From: Streptomyces sp. NBC_00287
Lineage (GTDB): Bacteria; Actinomycetota; Actinomycetes; Streptomycetales; Streptomycetaceae
NCBI RefSeq assembly: GCF_036173105.1
Contig: NZ_CP108053.1
Coordinates: 1,984,001-2,048,000, forward strand
Direction: 5' to 3'
Length of the DNA: 64,000 bases
This document shows, one piece after another, positions 43,240 through 53,874 of the stretch. A model generated the notes under the pieces. That model saw only the letters and a list, made by a program, of their open reading frames with translations, had not been told where the DNA came from and ran no database searches. Made by a program: the position numbers and the translations under genes. Within the stretch, counting starts at the first letter, position 1; every line of letters begins with the position of its first letter.

Positions 43240-44484
43240 GTGGACGTGCTGCACGAACGCTGCGCCGGTGTGGACATCAGCAAGAAGGACGCCAAGGCGT
43301 GCGTCCGCAGCCCAAGTACGAAACGGCGTGGCTCGTTCACCAACGAGACCACGACCTGGGGCTCGACCACGAACGCCGTGCTCGCCCTGCGGGATCACCT
43401 GCTCGCTGCCGAGGTCACACTCGTCGTGATCGAGGCGACCTCGGACTACTGGAAACCGTTCTACTACCTGCTTGCCGAGGACCTGAACGTGATCCTGGTC
43501 AACGCCCGGCAGGTCAAGAACCTGCCCGGCCGCAAGACCGACGTCTCCGACGCCGCCTGGCTGGCCCAGCTCGGCGCCCACGGCCTGGTCCGCCCCTCGT
43601 TCGTGCCACCCGCACCGGTGCGCGAACTGCGGGATCTGACCCGGGCCCGCACCCAGATGACCCGCGAGCGCGGGCAGATCGTGCAGCGACTGGAGAAGCT
43701 GCTGGAGGACACCGGGATCAAGCTGGCCGCGGTCGCCTCCGACATCATGGGCGTCTCGGGCCGGGCCATGCTGGAGGCCCTCATCGCCGGCGAACGCGAC
43801 CCGCAGACGCTCGCGGACCTGGCCAAACGCAAGCTCCGCAACAAGATCCCCGAACTCACCGAGGCCCTGACCGGCCGCTTCCTCCACCACCACGCCTTCC
43901 TCACCCGGCTGCACCTGGACCACTACGACCAGCTCACCGACGCCATCGGACAGCTGGATACGCGGATCGAGGAGGCGATGGCCCCCTTTCGGCCCGCCCT
44001 GGACCTGCTCGACACCATCCCCGGCATCAACCAGGCCGTCGCCGAAGTGATCATCGCGGAGACCGGCGGCGACATGGCCCGGTTCACCACCGCCAAACAC
44101 CTCGCGTCCTGGGCCGGGGTCTGCCCCGGCCACCAGGAGTCCGCCGGCCGCATCAAGAACACCAAGGTCCGCCCCGGCAACCCGTATCTCAAAGGAGCCC
44201 TCGGCCTCGCGGCGTTCGGAGCGGTGAGAACCAACAACACCTACCTGCAAGCCCGTTACAAGCGACTGACCGCCCGGCGCGGCCCGCTCAGGGCCCTGGT
44301 CGCCGTCGAGCACTCGATCATCACCGCGATCTGGCACATGCTCACCGACAACGTCCCCTACCACGAGCTCGGCGGCACCTACTTCGCCCGGCGCGACCCC
44401 GAACGAGCCACCCGCCGCGCGATCACCGCACTCAACCAGCTCGGCTACACCGTCACCCTCAACCCGATCGAGGGCGCAGCCTGA
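43240..44484 (+). CDS. IS110-family transposase
   Basis: The 414-residue enzyme has an N-terminal RuvC-like DEDD domain with Asp12 (GVDISKKDA), Glu65 (VVIEATSDYW), Asp101 and Asp104 (KTDVSDAAWLA), and a C-terminal domain with the serine nucleophile candidate Ser301 in CPGHQESAGRIKN. These are hallmarks of IS110 recombinases, which use a bridge RNA for donor and target choice. Start GTG 43240 follows GAGGGAGGGAG. The frame is intact, so the element may be active. GC content is close to the host, so transfer from a related actinomycete is likely. Confidence 0.95.
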   Translation: MDVLHERCAGVDISKKDAKACVRSPSTKRRGSFTNETTTWGSTTNAVLALRDHLLAAEVTLVVIEATSDYWKPFYYLLAEDLNVILVNARQVKNLPGRKTDVSDAAWLAQLGAHGLVRPSFVPPAPVRELRDLTRARTQMTRERGQIVQRLEKLLEDTGIKLAAVASDIMGVSGRAMLEALIAGERDPQTLADLAKRKLRNKIPELTEALTGRFLHHHAFLTRLHLDHYDQLTDAIGQLDTRIEEAMAPFRPALDLLDTIPGINQAVAEVIIAETGGDMARFTTAKHLASWAGVCPGHQESAGRIKNTKVRPGNPYLKGALGLAAFGAVRTNNTYLQARYKRLTARRGPLRALVAVEHSIITAIWHMLTDNVPYHELGGTYFARRDPERATRRAITALNQLGYTVTLNPIEGAA

Positions 44485-44561: not shown

Positions 44562-46820
44562 CTATTTACGCGTCAGAGCGCTGAGCTTTTCGGCCACGGG
44601 GGCGACCTCGACGGGCACTCCGTTGAGGACCGCGTTGCCCGACAGGGGGTCCAGGAGGCTGCCGTCGAGGAGCTGGTTGACGTTGACTCCGGGGTTCTTC
44701 AGGGCGTGGCTCATCCGGGTGCCGGGCCGGTCGTGCCCCCAGCCGTGCGGCAGGCTGACGACGCCGGGACGCACGGCGTCGGTGACCTCCGCGAGCGCGG
44801 TGACCTCTCCCCCGGCCCCCTTCAGGCGTACGTCCGCCCCGTCCCGCACTCCGAGCCGCTCGGCGTCGTCGGGGTGGATGTGCAGGGTGCAGCGGTTGGT
44901 GCCGCCAGTGAGGGCGGGCACGTTGTGCATCCAGCTGTTGTTGGACCGCAGATGCCGGCGGCCGACGAGGACGAGCCCGTCCGGGCGGTGCCGCAGGGCC
45001 TCCCTGAGCCGCGGCAGATCGCCTGCGATCGGCTCGGGCAGCAGCTCGACCTTCCCGCTCCTGGTCTTGAGGGGCTGGGGCAGCCGGGGCTTGAGCGGCC
45101 CGAGATCGATGCCGTGCGGATGCGCGAGCAACTTGTCGAGGGTCAGCCCGTCGAGTCGTACGCCGAAACCGTCGCCGTAGGGGCCGAGGCGCAGCATCAT
45201 GTCGAGCCGTCGCTCGGGGCCGGTGTCGCCGCCGAGCTGCGCCGCGAGTTCGCGCGGATCACGGCCATGGACCGGGGAGTGCGGCTCCTTCACCGCCTTG
45301 CCCAGGGTCTGGTCGACGACCATCTGATCGACCGCCGAGGGGTCCGCGCCGTGCATTCCGCTCGCGGCGAGGACGAGGCGGGCCATGATCTCCGTCTCCG
45401 CCATCCGCCCGGGCTCCAACGGGACGGCGGCGCGGGTGTAGCGGACCTGGTTGCGTACGGCGAGGGTGTTGAAGGCGAAGTCGTGGTGCGGGCTCTGGGA
45501 GGGCGGGGGCGGCGGCAGCACGACAGTGGCGTGGCGCGAGGTCTCGTTGAGATACGGGTCGACGCTGACCATGAAGTCCAGGGAGTCCAGCGCCTTGTCG
45601 AGCCGGTCGCCGTCGGGAGCGGAGAGCACGGGGTTGGCGCCGACCGCGATGAGCGCCCGGATCGGCTCCGCTCGGTCGGTGGCGGTGTCGATCTCCTCGG
45701 CGAGCGAGGAGAGGGGCAACTCCCCCTTGGCCTCCGGGTGCCCGCTCACCCGGGAGTGCCAGCGGCCGAGCTGGAAGCCGTGGCCGGGTCCGGCGGGCCG
45801 GGGCGTCTTGTCGGTGGCCGCCTGCGGGAAGAGGGCACCGCCGGGCCGGTCGAGATTGCCGGTGAGGATGTTGAGCACGTCCACGAGCCAACTGGCCAGG
45901 GTGCCATGGGCGACGGTACAGCTGCCGATACGGCCGTATACGGCGGCGGTGGGGGCGGCGGCGAGCTCGCGGGCGAGTTCTCGGATGACACCGGCGTCCA
46001 CGTCACAGGCTTCCGCGGCTTCTTCCGGCGTGAAGTCCTTTACCGCGTCGCGGAGTTCATCGATCCCGAGGAGATGGGGAGCCAGCTCCCCGGTGTCCAC
46101 GAGACCTTCCTCGAAAAGTACGGACGCCATGGCGGCGAGGAGCAGCGCGTCGGTGCCGGGCCGGATGGGGATGTGCCGGTCGGCGAGCTTGGCGGTGCGG
46201 GTGCGACGCGGGTCGATGACGGTGAGGGTGCCGCCGCGGGCCTTGAGGGCTTTGAGCCGGCCGGGGAAGTCGGGGGCGGTGCACAGACTCCCGTTGGACT
46301 CAAGGGGGTTGGCGCCGATGAGGAGCAGATGGTCGGTGCGGTCGAGATCGGGCACGGGGATGGCGTTGGCGTCGCCGTACAGCAGCCCGCTCGATACATG
46401 CTTGGGCATCTGGTCGACGGTGGACGCGGTGAAGAGGCTGTGGGTGCCGAGGGCGGCGATCAGGACGGGCGGATAGAGCGCACCGGCCATGGTGTGGACG
46501 TTGGGATTCCCGAGGACGATCCCGACGGCATGCGGCCCGTACCGCTCGACGACGGGCCGAATCCCTTCGGCAACGGCGTCGAAGGCCTCCGCCCAGGTGG
46601 CATCGCGGAGGACGCCGTCCTTACGGACGAGGGGGCCACGCAGCCGGTCCGGGTCACCGTCGACGGCACCGAAGGAGGCCCCCTTGGGACAGATGAACCC
46701 CTTGCTGAACACATCGTCGCGATCACCTCGGGCGCCGGTGACACGGGTGCCCTCGATGGTGAGCGTCAGCCCGCAGGTGGCCTCGCACAGGGGACAGATT
46801 CGCAGGGCGGTGCGGGACAC
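44562..46820 (-). CDS. Molybdopterin oxidoreductase with 4Fe-4S cluster
   Basis: This 752-residue cytosolic protein of the formate dehydrogenase/nitrate reductase superfamily has an N-terminal iron-sulfur motif CPLCEATCG with the fourth cysteine in FICPKG, molybdopterin-binding segments such as LLLIGANPLESNG and TGGTNRCTLHIHPDDA, and a C-terminal MopB-type barrel. No Tat signal or partner subunit is visible. GTG 46820 was chosen for its GGGAGGACCC ribosome site; longer readings start within an operator. The CATACCGACCGGTATG palindrome 48 bp upstream ties it to the fatty-acid TetR locus. The physiological substrate is unknown. Confidence 0.9.
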   Translation of the reverse strand: MSRTALRICPLCEATCGLTLTIEGTRVTGARGDRDDVFSKGFICPKGASFGAVDGDPDRLRGPLVRKDGVLRDATWAEAFDAVAEGIRPVVERYGPHAVGIVLGNPNVHTMAGALYPPVLIAALGTHSLFTASTVDQMPKHVSSGLLYGDANAIPVPDLDRTDHLLLIGANPLESNGSLCTAPDFPGRLKALKARGGTLTVIDPRRTRTAKLADRHIPIRPGTDALLLAAMASVLFEEGLVDTGELAPHLLGIDELRDAVKDFTPEEAAEACDVDAGVIRELARELAAAPTAAVYGRIGSCTVAHGTLASWLVDVLNILTGNLDRPGGALFPQAATDKTPRPAGPGHGFQLGRWHSRVSGHPEAKGELPLSSLAEEIDTATDRAEPIRALIAVGANPVLSAPDGDRLDKALDSLDFMVSVDPYLNETSRHATVVLPPPPPSQSPHHDFAFNTLAVRNQVRYTRAAVPLEPGRMAETEIMARLVLAASGMHGADPSAVDQMVVDQTLGKAVKEPHSPVHGRDPRELAAQLGGDTGPERRLDMMLRLGPYGDGFGVRLDGLTLDKLLAHPHGIDLGPLKPRLPQPLKTRSGKVELLPEPIAGDLPRLREALRHRPDGLVLVGRRHLRSNNSWMHNVPALTGGTNRCTLHIHPDDAERLGVRDGADVRLKGAGGEVTALAEVTDAVRPGVVSLPHGWGHDRPGTRMSHALKNPGVNVNQLLDGSLLDPLSGNAVLNGVPVEVAPVAEKLSALTRK

Positions 46821-46867
46821 GGGTCCTCCCGGGGGCGGCGACTTCGGTGACGCGCGGACGAGAGCGA

Positions 46868-46887
46868 GCATACCGACCGGTATGGAT
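46868..46887. promoter_or_regulatory. TetR-type operator upstream of molybdopterin oxidoreductase
   Basis: GCATACCGACCGGTATGGAT contains the near-palindrome CATACCGACCGGTATG and shares CATACCGACCGGT with the site at 14058-14077. It lies 48 bp before the start of the oxidoreductase gene, at the same distance as the other sites are from their genes. Confidence 0.55.
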
Positions 46888-46943
46888 GGAGGGGAGGGGG
46901 TGGCGCGGCCAATCCACGGCCAATCCACTGCCAATCCTCGATG

Positions 46944-49900
46944 TCAGTCGAAGAGGATCGGGCCGTTGCGGGTGCCGACGATCAGTTCGCCGGCGGGGCC
47001 GGTGGTGAGGGCGGTGCAGAGGGAGGGGAGGTCGATGGTGCGGTGCATCGTGTCGTCGCGGGTGCCGAGGACGCAGAGCGTGGTGTCGCCCGCCGCCGCG
47101 TAGGTCTCGCCACCGGGGAGCAGAGCGGCGTACTCGACGCGCAGCGGCATACCGTGCTCGTGCGTGACCGGCGGTTCCGGGGCAGGACCCCGGCGCGGCA
47201 GCCATCGACGCTTGCGGAGCCGGTGGGCGGGCGGCCGTTCGCCGTCCTCGGTGAAACGCCTGCGCAAGGCGTTCCACGGCACGATCTTGGATTGCCGTAC
47301 GCCGACCAGCAACAGCTCGTCGCCGCCCGGTGCGTCGAGGGCGAACACCCGGACCAGGCTGTCGTCGCGGAACCATACGGCGGCCCAGCGCCGACTGGTG
47401 GTGTCCAGGACGCGAATCACGTCGTCGGAGAGCTGGGTGAGGACCAGGAGACGACCGCCGCAGCGGACCGCGTGCAGCTCGGCCTTCTCGGTGCCCCCGT
47501 CGCCGGGCGCCGAGCACGGCTGGTCGGGCAGCGGCCCCCGGGCGATGTCGTGGATGCAGACCCGACCGTCTCCGTCCGGGTACAGGAACCGAGGGAGGTC
47601 CGAGTCCCACACCGCGACGGACAGCAGCGACTGCGCGCCGGTGTCGTCCGGCACGGCGGCCAGTTGGGCCCCGGGGTGATGGTGGGGCACGGGAGTGACC
47701 AGTGGCCGTCCCGCTGAGGCGACCGTGCCGTCGGTGCCGAAGTCCCAGTACTCCAGCAGGCCGTTCTCGCCGCGGGCGAAGAGCCGGGGCCGGACGTCCC
47801 GGCCGGGCGGGCGCCAGGCCACCGCAGCCAGCTGTCCCACCGCTCTGTCACCGACCGGGCGCAGCCGTCGGACCAGCTCGCCGCGCTCGCCGTCGCGCAC
47901 CTGGAGCGATCCGTCGGCCGAGCCGACGACGACGGAGAGACCGCCGTCGTGCTCCACGGCCGCGACGGCGGACACGGGCCGCACCTCGTCCAACGCCTCC
48001 ACCACGCGCCGGCCCTCGGGCGTGTCCCGCAGCCACCAGACCTGTCCGCCCTCGTCCCCGCAGAGCAGTCCGTCGTCGGTCGCGTGCAGGGAGGCCGCGG
48101 TCCTGGGCATGGGGCGCTCCCAGCCGTCGCGGTACGAGACCAGGCGGGCGTCGGCGCCGTAGCCGACGAGCCCTGTCGCGGTGTAGGCCAGCGCGCACAC
48201 GTCACCCACGTGTGCGGGGCGGGGCGGGTTGCCCAGTGGTCTGCACGTCGGCAGCGTCCACTCGCGCACGGTCCCGTCGGATCCGCCGACAGCCAGCCGC
48301 CCCGAGCCGTCGGGGTGCAGGGCAAGGGCGGTGGTCCACCGCGGTGACTCGGGGAGCGGACCGTAGACGAACATCCGGCCCGCGCCGACGTCCCAGCAGA
48401 CGATCCGGCCCGAGTCGGTGCCGACGACCAGCACGTCCCGGCCCCGGACGCGCCCGGTGGACAGTGCCGTGACGATGTCGGGGACGGTGAACTCCTGCTC
48501 GGCGACCGGCATTCCGCCGCGCAGGAGGAGGATCCTGACGCGTCCGCCGTGCTCGCCGGTGACAACGAAGTCCCGGCCGTCGGCCGTGCGTCCGGTGGTC
48601 GCGCAGCTGATCAGCGACACCTCCCAGGGGCCGGGGTCGAGCACCCTGCGCCGCCACAGCTCGTTGTGCCGCGTCAGGTCCCAGCAGCGGATCTGGCTGT
48701 CCTCGCCGACGCTGACGAGGACGGGGACGCCCCGCGGGCCGTGGATCTCGCCCAGGGCGAGGATGCGGCCCTCGTGCGCCGTGACCCGGACCGAGTCGGC
48801 GGCATGGGCGGTCGGCCAGAACCGCACGATCCCGTCCGAGCCGCCCACACAGACCGTGCCGCCCGCCCGGCACACGGCCGTTGCTGAATGCCGGAGCACC
48901 TGCCCGCCGAGGCGGTCCCCGGTCACCAGGTCGTACAGCTGGAGTCCGCGTGCGTTGCCCTGGACGGAGACGCAGGCGTTCGCACCCAGGTCGAAGACGG
49001 CCAGCCGGACCGAGGAGCCCGCGTCGACGCGCTGCGGCAGCCCGATCGGGCGCCCGCTGTCCAGGTCGATGCGGTGCAACTGTCCGTCGGCCGTAACCAC
49101 GGCGACGATCCACTGCCGGCCGACTCGGCGCACGCCGAGCGAGGAGACGGAGAAGCCGCTGGTCAGGAGGGTGCGGACGGGAGCGCCCGTCGTGAAGGAG
49201 GACAGCCGGACGGTGTGGTCCGCGCCGGCGGTGACGAGTAGGTTGCCCTGCGGGTGGCCGGTCGCCAGGTCGATGTGGGTGACGGGGCCTTCGTGGCCTG
49301 TCACCACCGGATCCGGTAAGCCCCGGCCGAGGATCGAGAACGCCTCGACCCGGCCGTCGGCGTAGCCCATCAGCAGCGTCATGAGGGGCAGTCCAGCGGG
49401 ACCGGCGCAAGCGGTGATGCGGTCTCCGGGGCCCTGTGGGGTGAGAGCGACCGGGTCCTCGGCCGTCAGTCTGTCGGCCCGCTCCTTCCACGCCTCGATC
49501 TCCCAGCTGTACAGCCGTCGGCGTTGCCGACGGCTGGGCGGAGGGTAATGGAAGGACCTGCCGAGCCGGTGGACGAGGACGTGTCCGCCGCGGAACCGCA
49601 AGGCCACCGCGCCGGGTTGGCCATCGGGGTCGGCGAGCACCACCAACTGGGCCGCCGGGTCCGGCATGCGCCGCTCGGGTTCGTAGTCCAGGGCGGAGCT
49701 CGGCGGCAGCACCCAGACCCAATTCCGGTCGGCATGCCAGACGTGGAGCAGGCGCGTGTAGTTCTTCGTCCGTATGCTGCCCCGCTCCAGGGCGACGTGC
49801 CCATCAGCCCACAAACCCGCCGCAAGGCCGGGAAGTTGGGGAGGTGCGGTCAGGGTCGAGCTGAACCAGTCGGTCGTCTTCTGCCGACGGGCGCGGCGGA

Positions 49901-52361
49901 CGTCCCCGTCGTCCAGGTCGAACCAGGTCGCCCCTCGCGGCGAGATCAGATCGGCGTAGTGCGCACCGGTTCCGGCGGTGGGGACCACGATTCCCCCGCC
50001 GACCCCGATCGACATCCCCGGATACCGCCGCGCCCCCTCGTCCGGATTCCACGCCGCCCACCGCGCCCGCCAGGGCAACGGCTCCTCCCCCACATCACAC
50101 GAGTCGGCCAGCCCCTGCGCCTTCCGGCACACCGCATGCAGCCGCAACTGGGCCCGCAGCTCGGGATTCTCTCCCCGCCCCTCCCACCACCGCAGCGACT
50201 CCTCCAGATCCCGCACCGCCTGCCCCGCCCGACGCCCCTCCGCGGTACGCAATCCGGGCAGCGCGGCGAAGAGTTGGCCGGGCTCGGCGGTCAGGACGAA
50301 CCGCGCCTCCTGCACCAGCGGATCGAGTACCCCGCCCTCCCCCGCGTGCAGCGCCAAGTACCGCCGCACATAGGGATGTTCGACGTCCCGCAATACCTCC
50401 GTCACGGTCCGCTGGATGCGCTCCGCGTCCCGTCCCTCCCGCAGGTACTCGATCAGCGCCCGGTGATACACCCGGTACACCGAGCCCCCGTCCTCCACGC
50501 TCTCGACGACATACGAGCCCGCCGCCTGCCGCAACCACACGATGTCTTCGTCGCGGTAGGAGCGGCCGGTGATCGTCGAGGCCAGGCGGGGCCAGACACC
50601 CGCCCAGGGCAGGCCCGCGCCCTGGGCGTAGGCGAGCGGGAGGAGGAGGTCGTGGGCGCGGGCCGCCTCCGGTCCCAGGCGCTGGGTGAGGTCTCGTTCC
50701 ATGGCCTCGCCCGGCAGCCGTGGGAGTTCGTCACGCCACTTCCGGTCGTGCGGATCGGGCGGGCACGGTTCGCGGGCGATCGTGCGGGCGGTGATGCGGG
50801 CCACCAGGAAGGAGCGGCCCGCGGCCTCGGCGACGGCTTCGGCGATGCCGTCCACCAGCCCGGGTGCGGCGGCGGAGAGGACGGAGTCCGGCGTGCACAG
50901 CAGCTTGCGGGCGTAGGCGCGGACGGCGTCGGGGTCGCCGTAGCACTCGGAGTCGAGGTCGATGCGCTGGGCGGTGGCGGGGAGCCGGTTCGCGATGTGC
51001 GGGCGGGCGCCCACCAACAGCCGTATGGGCAGGCGGCGTTCGGGGTCGGCAAGCGGGGTGAGGAGCTCGTCGACGGCCTCGTGCGGGGCGAGGGCCTCGT
51101 CCAGGGAGTCGATGAGGACGACGAGCGGGGCGGCCCGTGTCTGGAGGTGGGCGGTGAGCGCCCCGAGCGACTCGGCGGCGCAGCCCGCTGCCGCGGACAG
51201 AGCGTCGAGGAGCTGCCGGGTGGAGAGGTGACTGGCGTTGATCCGCTCGTCGACGGACCCGGGGGCGGGCAGCGCGGTCGGCAGTCCGGAGCGGGGCACG
51301 GACGCCGCGCGGGCCGGGTCGGTGAGGACCGCGAACAGCCCGAGCAGAGACGATTTCCCGGAGCCGGGGTCGCCGGTCACCACACACAGCCGCTCGTCCG
51401 CGCGCCCCGGCGACAGCCACTCCCTGACGTCCCCGATCGCCGCATGCCGCCCGGTGAAGTTCCACACGTCCTCGGTCGGTACGTCCGTCCCCCGCGCCCG
51501 GGGCAGGAAGAAGGCGCGCATGTCCTGTTCGCGGGCGCCGCGTTCGCGTGCTCCGAGTGCGACGATCCGGTCGATCTCCTCCAGTCGCAGTCCGTCCGCG
51601 TCGGGGATGTGGCGTGGGTTGGGGAGGAAGGCCGGGATGTCGCCGGTGGCGTGGGTCAGGGACCACACCGGGCGTTGGGCGCGCGGGACTTCGGGGTCGC
51701 TGCGGATGGCCGCCATGACGTGTTCGAGGCTGATGTGGGCGGGGGCATGGCCGGCGGTGGCCTGGCGGCGTACCGCGCGGTCGAAGGCTGCGGAGAGGGC
51801 GCCGGTGTACGCCTCCTCCTTGCGGCGGGAGGACGCGACGAGGACCAGTCCGGTGCTGCCGTGCTCGGTGACCGGCTCCCGGAAGCGGCGGGCCTCCAGC
51901 GCCCCGCGCAGGGCCGTGTCGGCGCCTTCCTCCGCGTAACAGGCGTCGATCAGCACCAGCAGCCGCTCGATCGCCGTGTCCTCCCACAGGTGGGCGACCA
52001 GATCCTCGGTGGGCAGGGCGGTGCCGCGCAGGTCGCGGGCGTCGCTGTCGTGCAGCAACAGGTAGTGGCTGCCGCTGTGTTCGGCCGTCACGCCGTGCGT
52101 GGCGAGGTACAGGACCACGTAGTCGTCCGGGTGGCGGTCGGGAGCTTTGGCGAACTGCCTCAGGGACTCCATGAGTTGGCTCCGTGTCGGGTCCAACCCC
52201 ACCCGCGCGCCCCTGACGTAACCCAGCTCCCCGAGGAACAGCTCCTCCACCCGCTGTACGTCATCAGCCAGTTCGGGTCTCTCCGCCTCCGGATGCGCCG
52301 CTACGTCCGTGACGGCGGCGGCGATCAGGAAACGGCGCGCCTCAGTCGAGACCGCATCCAT
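46944..52361 (-). CDS. Caspase-STAND NTPase-WD40 protein (1805 residues)
   Basis: Order of parts: a caspase-like peptidase (residues about 8-235) with His89 (YLATHGV) and Cys141 (LIDACYAEE) as catalytic dyad; a STAND/NACHT-type NTPase with Walker A GDPGSGKSS (330-338) and Walker B VVLIDSLDE (414-422); a helical region; and about 1000 residues of beta-propeller with repeats such as GADHTVRL, GGSDGIVRFW, GEDSQIRCWD and GGSDGTVREWT. STAND proteins with protease effectors act as sensors that oligomerise on ligand binding, so a cell-death or phage-defence role is likely (inference). The start ATG 52361 overlaps the hydrolase gene by 20 bp, so the two are coupled. Confidence 0.88.
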   Translation of the reverse strand: MDAVSTEARRFLIAAAVTDVAAHPEAERPELADDVQRVEELFLGELGYVRGARVGLDPTRSQLMESLRQFAKAPDRHPDDYVVLYLATHGVTAEHSGSHYLLLHDSDARDLRGTALPTEDLVAHLWEDTAIERLLVLIDACYAEEGADTALRGALEARRFREPVTEHGSTGLVLVASSRRKEEAYTGALSAAFDRAVRRQATAGHAPAHISLEHVMAAIRSDPEVPRAQRPVWSLTHATGDIPAFLPNPRHIPDADGLRLEEIDRIVALGARERGAREQDMRAFFLPRARGTDVPTEDVWNFTGRHAAIGDVREWLSPGRADERLCVVTGDPGSGKSSLLGLFAVLTDPARAASVPRSGLPTALPAPGSVDERINASHLSTRQLLDALSAAAGCAAESLGALTAHLQTRAAPLVVLIDSLDEALAPHEAVDELLTPLADPERRLPIRLLVGARPHIANRLPATAQRIDLDSECYGDPDAVRAYARKLLCTPDSVLSAAAPGLVDGIAEAVAEAAGRSFLVARITARTIAREPCPPDPHDRKWRDELPRLPGEAMERDLTQRLGPEAARAHDLLLPLAYAQGAGLPWAGVWPRLASTITGRSYRDEDIVWLRQAAGSYVVESVEDGGSVYRVYHRALIEYLREGRDAERIQRTVTEVLRDVEHPYVRRYLALHAGEGGVLDPLVQEARFVLTAEPGQLFAALPGLRTAEGRRAGQAVRDLEESLRWWEGRGENPELRAQLRLHAVCRKAQGLADSCDVGEEPLPWRARWAAWNPDEGARRYPGMSIGVGGGIVVPTAGTGAHYADLISPRGATWFDLDDGDVRRARRQKTTDWFSSTLTAPPQLPGLAAGLWADGHVALERGSIRTKNYTRLLHVWHADRNWVWVLPPSSALDYEPERRMPDPAAQLVVLADPDGQPGAVALRFRGGHVLVHRLGRSFHYPPPSRRQRRRLYSWEIEAWKERADRLTAEDPVALTPQGPGDRITACAGPAGLPLMTLLMGYADGRVEAFSILGRGLPDPVVTGHEGPVTHIDLATGHPQGNLLVTAGADHTVRLSSFTTGAPVRTLLTSGFSVSSLGVRRVGRQWIVAVVTADGQLHRIDLDSGRPIGLPQRVDAGSSVRLAVFDLGANACVSVQGNARGLQLYDLVTGDRLGGQVLRHSATAVCRAGGTVCVGGSDGIVRFWPTAHAADSVRVTAHEGRILALGEIHGPRGVPVLVSVGEDSQIRCWDLTRHNELWRRRVLDPGPWEVSLISCATTGRTADGRDFVVTGEHGGRVRILLLRGGMPVAEQEFTVPDIVTALSTGRVRGRDVLVVGTDSGRIVCWDVGAGRMFVYGPLPESPRWTTALALHPDGSGRLAVGGSDGTVREWTLPTCRPLGNPPRPAHVGDVCALAYTATGLVGYGADARLVSYRDGWERPMPRTAASLHATDDGLLCGDEGGQVWWLRDTPEGRRVVEALDEVRPVSAVAAVEHDGGLSVVVGSADGSLQVRDGERGELVRRLRPVGDRAVGQLAAVAWRPPGRDVRPRLFARGENGLLEYWDFGTDGTVASAGRPLVTPVPHHHPGAQLAAVPDDTGAQSLLSVAVWDSDLPRFLYPDGDGRVCIHDIARGPLPDQPCSAPGDGGTEKAELHAVRCGGRLLVLTQLSDDVIRVLDTTSRRWAAVWFRDDSLVRVFALDAPGGDELLLVGVRQSKIVPWNALRRRFTEDGERPPAHRLRKRRWLPRRGPAPEPPVTHEHGMPLRVEYAALLPGGETYAAAGDTTLCVLGTRDDTMHRTIDLPSLCTALTTGPAGELIVGTRNGPILFD

Positions 52362-53187
52362 CGGTCACCGCCCGGCCGACCTGCGGGGTATTGAGGTAGC
52401 GGGTGGCATCGTGGGCCCGGCTGCCGTTGTGGACGAGGTGACAGTCGACCCGGTCACCGAAGAGCGGACGTAAGTCCTTCACCAGGGCCACGACATCGCC
52501 CTCGTCCGCGATGTTGGTCCAGGTGCCGACACCGCCGGGCCAGGCGCCCGGCTTGCGCAGCCGGTCGTAGACGAGGTTGCGGATGCCGAGCGGCGAGCCC
52601 AGCGTCAGCAGCCCGCGCACCGGCCACTCGGGGTGGGCGCACAGCGCCTCGTAGGCGACGACACTGCCGAGGGAGTGCCCGACCACGACCCGGGTGCGGT
52701 CGGTGACGGCGGCGGCGACCCTCTCCTGTACGGCCGTCTGCACAGCGGGATCGCAGAGGTACGCGCGGACTTGCTTGAGGTCGAGGACCAGGCCGCGCAG
52801 GGCGACGCCGGCGAAGAACCGGGAGCGGCTGAGGGCATTGAGCGCGCGCTGGACCGTCTGCGGGGTGCGGGCCAGGGTCCGGGCGTCGGGTGGCAGGACG
52901 GCCTCGTCGGTGCGAGCGGCCTCGGCCCAGATCGACAGGAGGAGTTCGGTCTCGAAGCCCTCGTCGACGTCAGAGGCGTCCAGGGGCGGGTCCTGGACGG
53001 CGAGGGTGCGGCCGGGCGGGCGGAACAGATCGCCGTAGAAGACACAGCGCACCTCGTCCGCGTCGAGGGCGGACACGGTCCCGGCGCGCAGCAGGCCGTC
53101 GGCGAGCGCGGGGTGCCAGGCGGTGTGCAACTGCCGTTCCCCGGCGTACTGCTGACCGATCCCGTGGATGCAGACCACCCGAGCCAT
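52342..53187 (-). CDS. Alpha/beta-hydrolase upstream of the caspase-STAND gene
   Basis: This 281-residue protein opens MARVVCIHGIGQQYAGERQL, with HGIG as a likely oxyanion-hole strand. It carries the nucleophile elbow VVGHSLGSVVAYEA (Ser172) and a late histidine in LVHNGSRAHDATRYL. This fold covers lipases and esterases, and a membrane-damaging role is conceivable. Start ATG 53187 follows a GGGGGGACGCC site. Its 3' end overlaps the start of the caspase-STAND-WD40 gene. Codon 239 (52471-52473) is a TTA, so translation may need the bldA tRNA, delaying the pair to late growth. Confidence 0.82.
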   Translation of the reverse strand: MARVVCIHGIGQQYAGERQLHTAWHPALADGLLRAGTVSALDADEVRCVFYGDLFRPPGRTLAVQDPPLDASDVDEGFETELLLSIWAEAARTDEAVLPPDARTLARTPQTVQRALNALSRSRFFAGVALRGLVLDLKQVRAYLCDPAVQTAVQERVAAAVTDRTRVVVGHSLGSVVAYEALCAHPEWPVRGLLTLGSPLGIRNLVYDRLRKPGAWPGGVGTWTNIADEGDVVALVKDLRPLFGDRVDCHLVHNGSRAHDATRYLNTPQVGRAVTDGCGLD

Positions 53188-53253
53188 GGCGTCCCCCCAT
53201 AAGCGCCCCAAGGGTCTGATCACCTTAGCAACGGGAGGCCTCCTGGGCCCCGT

Positions 53254-53874
53254 TCAGTCCAGGACCCGTGCCAGATACGCCCGCAGCAGCTCCCGGGCCT
53301 CCGCGATGATGCGTTCGTCGCCCTCCGGGGAGACCCGGAAGGCGAGATGGACCAGGGTGTCGGCGGTTTCCACGGCGACGAGGAAGACGCGGCGCAGGTC
53401 CTCGTCGGGGGTTCGGTCGAGGTAGCCGGAGAGGAGGTCGGTGAGGCGGTCGGCCACGCGGTGGTTCGGCTCGGCCGGGCGGACGCCGACCGGTATCTGG
53501 TTGCCGAAGTCGACCAGGGAGAAGCCGGGGGCGGTCCGCTTCATCACCAGGTACTCGTCAAGTACGGCGTCCATGGCCGCCCGCCAGCCACCGCCACCGC
53601 CGACGCCCGCCAGGCGCTCGGTGACGCGCTCGGCGTAGCGGTCGAGGTTGCGCTGGGCCAGGGCGTCGGCCATCTGGCGTTTGTTGCCGAAGAAGCGGTA
53701 GACCGAGCCGATGGGGACGCCGGCGCGCTGGGCGACCGCGCGGGTGCTCAGGGCGTCGTAGCCGACCTCGTCGAGGAGGTCGGCGCAGGCGTCGAGGATC
53801 CTGGTCAGCCGTTCGGCACTGCGCCGCTGTACGGGCGCGCGGCGGAGCGAGGTCGCGTGGGGCACGGGCTTCAT
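53254..53874 (-). CDS. TetR-family regulator coupled to a lipoprotein gene
   Basis: This 206-residue repressor has a basic N-terminus, then a helix-turn-helix (STRAVAQRAGVPIGSVYRFF, about residues 44-63) and a helical ligand domain. It starts at ATG 53874 within an ATGA overlap with the lipoprotein gene stop, with GGAAAGG as ribosome site, so translation is coupled. The regulatory target is not obvious. The lipoprotein is the natural candidate. I saw no clear palindrome upstream of the pair. Confidence 0.88.
   Translation of the reverse strand: MKPVPHATSLRRAPVQRRSAERLTRILDACADLLDEVGYDALSTRAVAQRAGVPIGSVYRFFGNKRQMADALAQRNLDRYAERVTERLAGVGGGGGWRAAMDAVLDEYLVMKRTAPGFSLVDFGNQIPVGVRPAEPNHRVADRLTDLLSGYLDRTPDEDLRRVFLVAVETADTLVHLAFRVSPEGDERIIAEARELLRAYLARVLD

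Follow-up and report, generated by a model that had tools for sequence, protein, structure and literature searches.

A caspase-STAND-WD40 protein and its neighboring alpha/beta hydrolase in Streptomyces: a linked gene pair and candidate conflict or cell-death module

We analyzed a stretch of 64,000 nucleotides from Streptomyces sp. NBC_00287 (contig NZ_CP108053.1, positions 1,984,001 to 2,048,000; hereafter the window), whose genome is a single contig of 9.64 Mb. On the minus strand of the window, the gene for an alpha/beta hydrolase, P0002, is followed by that for P0001, which joins a caspase-like peptidase to a STAND-type nucleoside triphosphatase (NTPase) and WD40 repeats. An initial annotation made from the DNA alone had proposed the two as a candidate conflict or cell-death system, with the hydrolase gene first and an overlap of 20 bp. 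The frames at 52342-53187 (P0002) and 46944-52361 (P0001) agree with this description and share the 20 nt from 52342 to 52361. An alternative, longer hydrolase starting at GTG 53223 is possible; P0002 is best taken as 281 amino acids (aa) from ATG 53187, because the identical database entry, P0003, has this length. The closest named homologues of both proteins come from Streptomyces. The features of the locus are as follows, in window coordinates.

46944..52361, minus strand: P0001, caspase-STAND-WD40 protein, 1805 aa, one open frame
52342..53187, minus strand: P0002, alpha/beta hydrolase, 281 aa from ATG 53187 (GHSLG elbow, homologues, AlphaFold2 model)
51609..52349, minus strand: caspase domain, approximately residues 5-251, with His89, Asp139 and Cys141
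51939..51941, minus strand: codon of Cys141, catalytic; Cys141 and Asp139 kept in 51/51 aligned sequences
50220..51506, minus strand: STAND NTPase region, approximately residues 286-714, with Walker A G330-S337 and Walker B D418-E422 (Pfam, alignment, Foldseek)
46947..50084, minus strand: C-terminal region, residues 760-1805, with WD40 repeats, predicted sensor
52672..52674, minus strand: codon of Ser172, predicted nucleophile in GHSLG; invariant in 76/76 homologues, Ser in 113/114 partnered homologues
52495..52497, minus strand: codon of Asp231, predicted triad acid; 114/114 partnered homologues, invariant in a diverse alignment of 15 sequences
52411..52413, minus strand: codon of His259, predicted triad base; 113/114 partnered homologues
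52858..52908, minus strand: low-confidence loop, hydrolase residues 94-110 (including PDARTLARTP; Arg103, Arg107), candidate caspase cleavage site
46898..53250, no strand assigned: inserted segment absent from relatives, holding the two genes and almost nothing else

P0001 exceeded the Pfam cut-offs for Peptidase_C14 (42.5 bits; cut-off 21.4), which together with the His-Cys dyad places it in caspase family C14, for nSTAND1 (31.5 bits; cut-off 27.1) and for WD40 (48.6 bits; cut-off 27), with the top repeat at residues 1020-1053. In an alignment with 50 relatives, His89 (51/51), Asp139, Cys141, the Walker A residues G333-S334-G335-K336, D418 and D421-E422 are invariant, so that a degenerate NTPase or caspase can be rejected. 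The dyad was also kept in 36 of the 37 caspase domains of relatives that were laid out, the exception (L060) being an apparent alignment slip beside an SHG motif. The top Foldseek match of the NTPase structure model in the PDB was Apaf-1 (1z6t_A, E 1.2e-9). P0001 has the tripartite layout of STAND/NLR-type proteins, with an N-terminal effector, a central NTPase carrying Walker A and B, and C-terminal repeats. Pfam and the alignment agree with the initial annotation on a single chain of 1805 residues with His89/Cys141 and both Walker motifs. The very long propeller that it had described was recovered in part: WD40 scores above the cut-off and the propeller models match best over residues ~1018-1394, whereas residues 760-990 and 1400-1805 are divergent and only weakly recognized as propeller from sequence. 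In all 15 homologues compared, similarity was lower in the C-terminal region than in the caspase and the NTPase.

An Asp two residues before the catalytic Cys, the feature of metacaspases and paracaspases, is present in P0001 as D139 (51/51). We take MALT1 Asp462 to sit two residues before the MALT1 cysteine, i.e. at the position of Asp139. According to the available excerpt of the source, metacaspases and paracaspases recognize Arg or Lys, and MALT1 Asp462 contributes to the S1 pocket believed to confer selectivity for Arg (PMC4357240). Asp139 is predicted to lie in the S1 pocket of P0001, whose caspase probably prefers Arg or Lys because Asp139 matches the position of MALT1 Asp462.

In P0002, the serine of the GHSLG elbow noted in the initial annotation is residue 172, and the triad S172/D231/H259 is intact. 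The AlphaFold2 model (mean predicted local distance difference test score, pLDDT, 89.1) resembles lipases and phospholipases in a fold search. PF02450 (LCAT) was not among the six Pfam families listed for P0002 at E values up to 1, and the similarity to LCAT is one of fold only, tied with other lipases. Confidence drops to a pLDDT of 63 in the block of residues 101-110, and two arginines within this block are common among the P0002 homologues (R103 in 68/76, R107 in 71/76). The loop is a candidate cleavage site because of its low model confidence together with Arg103 and Arg107.

One set of 199 genomes of the genus, sampled evenly from a larger group, was searched both with the hydrolase and with the caspase-NTPase part of P0001. 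A hydrolase match (E 1e-20) was found in at least 39 and a caspase-NTPase match in at least 56 of the 199; both are lower bounds because only the best first-look candidates per genome (12 and 5, respectively) were scored. We examined the neighborhoods of all 73 caspase-NTPase rows outside the window, which yielded 70 proteins after two repeats had been merged automatically and one fragment, belonging to a G121 gene that was already in the count, had been dropped by hand. Caspases and hydrolases were called by profiles iterated on this family, and a neighbor was defined as lying within 5.5 kb of the matched stretch. An N-terminal caspase was present in 58 of the 70 relatives, and a hydrolase lay beside 50 of these 58 (33 of the P0002 type, 17 of an LCAT type, none both). 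Neither type was found beside any of the 12 caspase-less NTPase relatives (0/12 vs 50/58; Fisher p 1.2e-8, or 1.1e-7 with the fragment). This kind of caspase and a hydrolase are statistically tied. Most of the homologues examined have a hydrolase neighbor, and the NTPase is not degenerate, the reverse of the outcome that the initial annotation had named as fatal to a paired system.

An earlier count by pairwise threshold had given a P0002-type neighbor in 27 of 71 rows (window included); by profile, the other 44 rows comprise 7 with the P0002 type, 17 with the LCAT type, 8 with a caspase and no hydrolase, and 12 without a caspase. Pfam recognized the LCAT type in L044 and L074 (PF02450, 48.5 and 53.9 bits; cut-off 21), and the profile recognized it in the other 15 loci. 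LCAT-type matches occurred in 42 of the 199 genomes, some of them adjoining proteins other than such caspases. The LCAT-type hydrolases of L127-L133, L135 and L137-L139 adjoin proteins without a profile-visible caspase (that of L138 has an NTPase match), and those of L134 and L136 do adjoin a caspase-STAND gene.

The neighborhood search suggested in the initial annotation was also run from the hydrolase side, by scanning named actinobacterial genomes with the hydrolase alignment and keeping the best 80 of at least 527 relatives. A caspase lay beside the hydrolase in 76 of these best 80 loci, with the hydrolase first in 56, the caspase first in 18 and opposite strands in 2; the four exceptions are L172 (contig edge), L194, L198 and L208. 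The genera represented include Streptomyces, Kitasatospora, Saccharothrix, Amycolatopsis, Nocardia, Asanoa, Actinomadura, Micromonospora, Kutzneria, Nonomuraea and others. Several diverged caspase-STAND-hydrolase loci (L047, L049, L050, L051, L053, L054, L057 and L058) have a further large gene (981-1734 aa) adjoining the pair. Scans of five of these genes (L047, L049, L050, L053, L058) showed a weak AAA/STAND likeness, NACHT-HEAT, or no Pfam match. It is possible that this gene encodes a third component absent from the window.

We inferred descent from one quick tree of 69 caspase-NTPase regions, in which several long branches were flagged and part of the loci had been chosen via the hydrolase. 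On this tree, the P0002-type set shows at least five changes of gene order or orientation, and hydrolase type changed at least twice, while the hydrolase-less loci need six changes and are therefore scattered. The pair persists through gene-order changes, and one hydrolase family has been replaced by the LCAT-like family in the same slot. Caspase and hydrolase distances correlated with r 0.81 over 42 pairs, a value reached in 0 of 2000 permutations. Chance neighborhood is rejected by the 50/58 vs 0/12 contrast, the 76 of the best 80 loci and this persistence through rearrangements. One genome, G196, was considered as a case of a separated pair (hydrolase alone at L045, caspase alone at L069) and rejected, as the L045 hydrolase is kin to that of L125 and not to those of the sisters of L069.

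The two genes were inserted as one clean unit. The genes that directly flank them, for a TetR regulator and a molybdopterin oxidoreductase, share a contig and lie no more than 700 bp from each other in 12 of 30 relatives; in two others they share a contig at distances of 2.3 and 10.8 kb. Where these relatives have a P0002 match, it is never at the insertion site of the window. When eight empty sites were aligned, similarity ended at 46836-46897 and resumed at 53232-53258. An exact-word search of 46701-46950 against 53151-53300 for target-site duplications or terminal repeats gave only 8-bp direct and 10-bp inverted matches, and no phage-borne copy was matched in the phage collection searched. 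A perfect 16-bp palindrome, CATACCGACCGGTATG, lies at 46869-46884, just left of the insertion and before the molybdopterin oxidoreductase gene; it resembles an operator and may be one for the flanking TetR. CCAATCC occurs three times with 11-bp spacing at 46909-46937, on the left margin of the insertion. An IS110-family transposase gene (PF01548, PF02371) at 43240-44484 is ~2.4 kb from the insertion and gives no sign of having moved the pair.

Four caspase-STAND proteins are encoded in the source genome, all with a hydrolase neighbor: that of the window is of the P0002 type and those of L042, L043 and L044 are of the LCAT type. At L041, a VMAP-C protein (PF20028, 124.9 bits) has a caspase domain by profile, for which the Pfam caspase model fell short of E 0.01, and is accompanied by a P0002-family hydrolase and an AAA ATPase; a vWA domain was not recognized in the three L041 proteins scanned. 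In the 1339-aa protein of this locus (L041:2530-6549), the profile also detects a second caspase-like domain close to the C-terminus, and a cold-shock domain comes after it. Elsewhere in the genome, a 541-aa protein (L040:8581-10206) joins a trypsin-like domain to a hydrolase domain of the P0002 family. Four of the five other caspase-domain genes (L238-L242) follow an EACC1 gene (PF19953, 50 to 102.7 bits; cut-off 23.6), and the fifth, L238, was not seen by the caspase profile built here. The caspases of this genome are thus split into EACC1-partnered and hydrolase-partnered classes, the window belonging to the latter, and with L238-L242 the genome holds about ten caspase-type conflict loci.

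Matches were also present on 48 plasmid records, of which 10 neighborhoods were read, chosen for organism variety; in 8 of the 48 rows, two of which (H37 and H61) are among the ten read, the match already bore the name of a caspase family protein. A caspase-fold peptidase adjoins the hydrolase in all ten, nine being of caspase type by profile or annotation, among them that of L225 with a weak profile match (E 0.0035) and an annotation as caspase family, and one having a CHAT domain. The latter is on a Sinorhizobium fredii plasmid (L228:5998-8003), where a P0002-family hydrolase is followed by a CHAT-domain protein in place of the caspase. The caspase proteins of the rhizobial and Hymenobacter plasmids have 593-655 aa and no STAND or WD40 match, and a Leptolyngbya plasmid encodes a caspase-TPR-PIN protein of 2216 aa. 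The plasmid pairs lie near recombinases and helicases and represent three further phyla. Given their differing architectures, the protease-hydrolase couple looks constant and the sensor variable.

Anatomy and analogy support a conflict or cell-death role of the pair. We propose, with belief and doubt about evenly balanced, that P0001 and P0002 belong to a single transferable module for immunity or cell death, whose caspase turns on the lipase-like hydrolase, most probably through cleavage. On the model of NLRs and Apaf-1, detection of an intruder or of damage would fall to the WD40 region, and oligomerization of P0001 to the Apaf-1-like NTPase. The caspase domains brought together would become active and would in turn activate the hydrolase, most likely via cleavage and perhaps in the Arg103/Arg107 loop, and the hydrolase may then attack membrane lipids, leading to cell death or arrest.

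Several observations weigh against this reading. Eight of the 58 caspase-STAND relatives have no nearby hydrolase of either type, and therefore the pair is not obligatory; conversely, the hydrolase of L194 adjoins a STAND protein without a caspase, and those of L198 and L208 have no nearby caspase. A rule for all caspases is rejected because L238-L242 have no adjacent hydrolase of the P0002 or LCAT type (near L239 the LCAT profile has a weak match, but at 2 kb and beyond intervening genes). The correlation is stronger still for NTPase-hydrolase distances (r 0.87) than for caspase-hydrolase distances; the two coefficients reflect common descent and do not single out the caspase. The P0002 model gave no Foldseek match at E 0.001 or better, its resemblance to lipases being at superfamily level only, and the partnered hydrolases have no conserved extra pro-domain or clear gating insert. 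Among 114 partnered hydrolases, the candidate loop contains Lys or Arg in 105, at densities in the loop and the whole protein of 0.101 vs 0.100 in the close set, 0.143 vs 0.103 in the middle set and 0.072 vs 0.105 in the distant set. The PADLOC 2023 defense models did not match P0002 and matched P0001 only with HEAT-ARM_XIII (35 bits, on the repeats), and the six other window genes scanned, encoding a transposase, the molybdopterin oxidoreductase, the TetR regulator, a homogentisate dioxygenase, a sortase-like protein and an anti-sigma factor, include no defense gene.

An enriched or universally conserved basic cleavage site was not found among the 114 partnered homologues, and cleavage at the loop stays a proposal because Lys/Arg is not enriched in the close set and is missing in 6 of the 21 distant members. 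The idea that the hydrolase is tied to the NTPase or WD40 region rather than to the caspase is not supported, given the 0/12 among caspase-less relatives and the caspase-hydrolase pairs with other sensors, although the tree distances do not discriminate between these ties and L194 is a counter-example.

The two proteins might instead act jointly without cleavage, either as two effectors of one sensor or with the hydrolase controlling the STAND protein by making or removing a lipid or acyl signal. Such an arrangement, which we regard as rather unlikely, would suit the lack of a cleavage loop conserved across the whole hydrolase family, the varying order and distance of the paired genes, and the trypsin-like fusion of L040, in which this hydrolase family is tethered to a protease. 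Activation of a separately encoded partner by the canu caspase, as described in the available excerpt (PMC12799240), speaks for cleavage instead, and the tie of the hydrolase to caspase-bearing rather than caspase-less STAND relatives fits a protease-partner relation.

It is improbable that the module serves developmental or stress cell death, killing or remodeling hyphae on an internal signal, rather than immunity. The relatives are found in actinobacteria, many of which are filamentous in habit. Related systems have been tied to a multicellular habit by Kaur et al. in the available excerpt (PMC7159879). Against this stand the patchy presence of the hydrolase (at least 39 of 199 genus genomes), the clean insertion with its empty sites, the plasmid carriage near recombinases and helicases, and the repeats as the least conserved part, all of which suit a conflict system better than a core developmental pathway. 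A caspase acting on general cell proteins, with the hydrolase an accessory, self-protecting or functionally unimportant neighbor, would account for the 8/58 relatives that stand alone, but is very hard to reconcile with 50/58 vs 0/12, 76 of the best 80 loci, survival through rearrangements and pairs in three further phyla.

Beyond activation of the hydrolase by the caspase in the window pair, we tentatively suggest, at somewhat less than an even chance, that bacterial immunity makes general use of a mobile executioner cassette, consisting of a caspase-type protease and a lipase-like hydrolase, in which the activated lipase would attack the membrane of its own cell. The cassette would embrace at least five kinds of caspase (STAND-WD40, STAND-TPR, VMAP, TPR-PIN and small plasmid forms) and two hydrolase families in one slot; it would be the lipid-attacking counterpart of canu, and the window sensor would be an all-in-one bacterial apoptosome. 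The outputs listed for bacterial caspase homologues in the excerpted source are the canu nuclease, CRISPR, gasdermin/CARD, NLR and Thoeris systems (PMC12799240). If the proposal is true, lipid hydrolysis would be added to these, and caspase, Apaf-1-like NTPase and WD40, the components of the animal apoptosome, would be united on one chain and accompanied by a dedicated downstream enzyme. The natural exchange of two hydrolase families offers a built-in comparison for substrate and specificity.

Caspase-NACHT-WD40 architectures, VMAP hydrolase-caspase pairs and protease-activated effectors are already known. Kaur et al. (2020) described caspase domains always with a neighboring alpha/beta-hydrolase gene in VMAP (vWA-MoxR) ternary systems (available excerpt of PMC7159879). 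The initial annotation, which could not name the pairing, was therefore mistaken insofar as a caspase with an adjacent alpha/beta-hydrolase gene, as found in the window, had been described; its NLR-like setting was not found described in the paper collection searched. The VMAP-C locus L041 shows the pairing described by Kaur et al. and is akin to the window pair in that its caspase and hydrolase match the profiles from the P0001/P0002 family. The window pair differs in that, of the 26 families matching P0001 at E values up to 1, the 25 shown do not include PF20028 (VMAP-C), in having TetR and molybdopterin oxidoreductase genes and no MoxR or vWA gene adjacent, and in combining sensor, NTPase and caspase in one NLR-like polypeptide whose kin swap the hydrolase for the LCAT-like family. 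No description of a caspase-STAND-hydrolase pair was found in the limited paper collection searched, in which the hydrolase-caspase couple in NLR-like proteins, the LCAT-like replacement and the small plasmid pairs appear to be new.

The EACC1-caspase systems, as excerpted, likewise have two genes and an N-terminal caspase on a large variable protein, with STAND possible (Kaur et al., 2020; PMC7159879). In the window, however, the 5′ gene encodes a hydrolase, PF19953 is not among the P0002 families, and the caspase_w_EACC1 model scores P0001 at 57.6 bits against a cut-off of 140. P0001 also resembles metacaspase-NACHT-WD40 proteins and Apaf-1 in its STAND NTPase and WD40 repeats, and the metacaspases in its caspase-fold protease; Apaf-1 recruits its caspase in trans. 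Metacaspase-NACHT-WD40 architectures were reported by Asplund-Samuelsson et al. (2012), where the available excerpt makes no mention of an alpha/beta-hydrolase partner (PMC3501461).

The strongest precedent for a caspase activating a separate partner is canu, in which, according to the excerpted source, a caspase complex turns a separately encoded pro-nuclease active and the system confers phage defense; related trypsin-type pairs have their protease joined N-terminally to a defense-associated enzyme, typically with the partner gene upstream (PMC12799240). Like canu, the window pair couples a caspase-family protease to a partner enzyme from a separate gene, and like the trypsin-type pairs it has the partner gene upstream. 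Activation by the caspase is shown for canu in that excerpt and predicted here, and the canu partner, an MBL-fold nuclease, bears gating inserts, whereas the one here is a GHSLG Ser-Asp-His alpha/beta hydrolase. With a lipase-like partner instead of the canu nuclease, the target would shift from DNA to membrane lipid.

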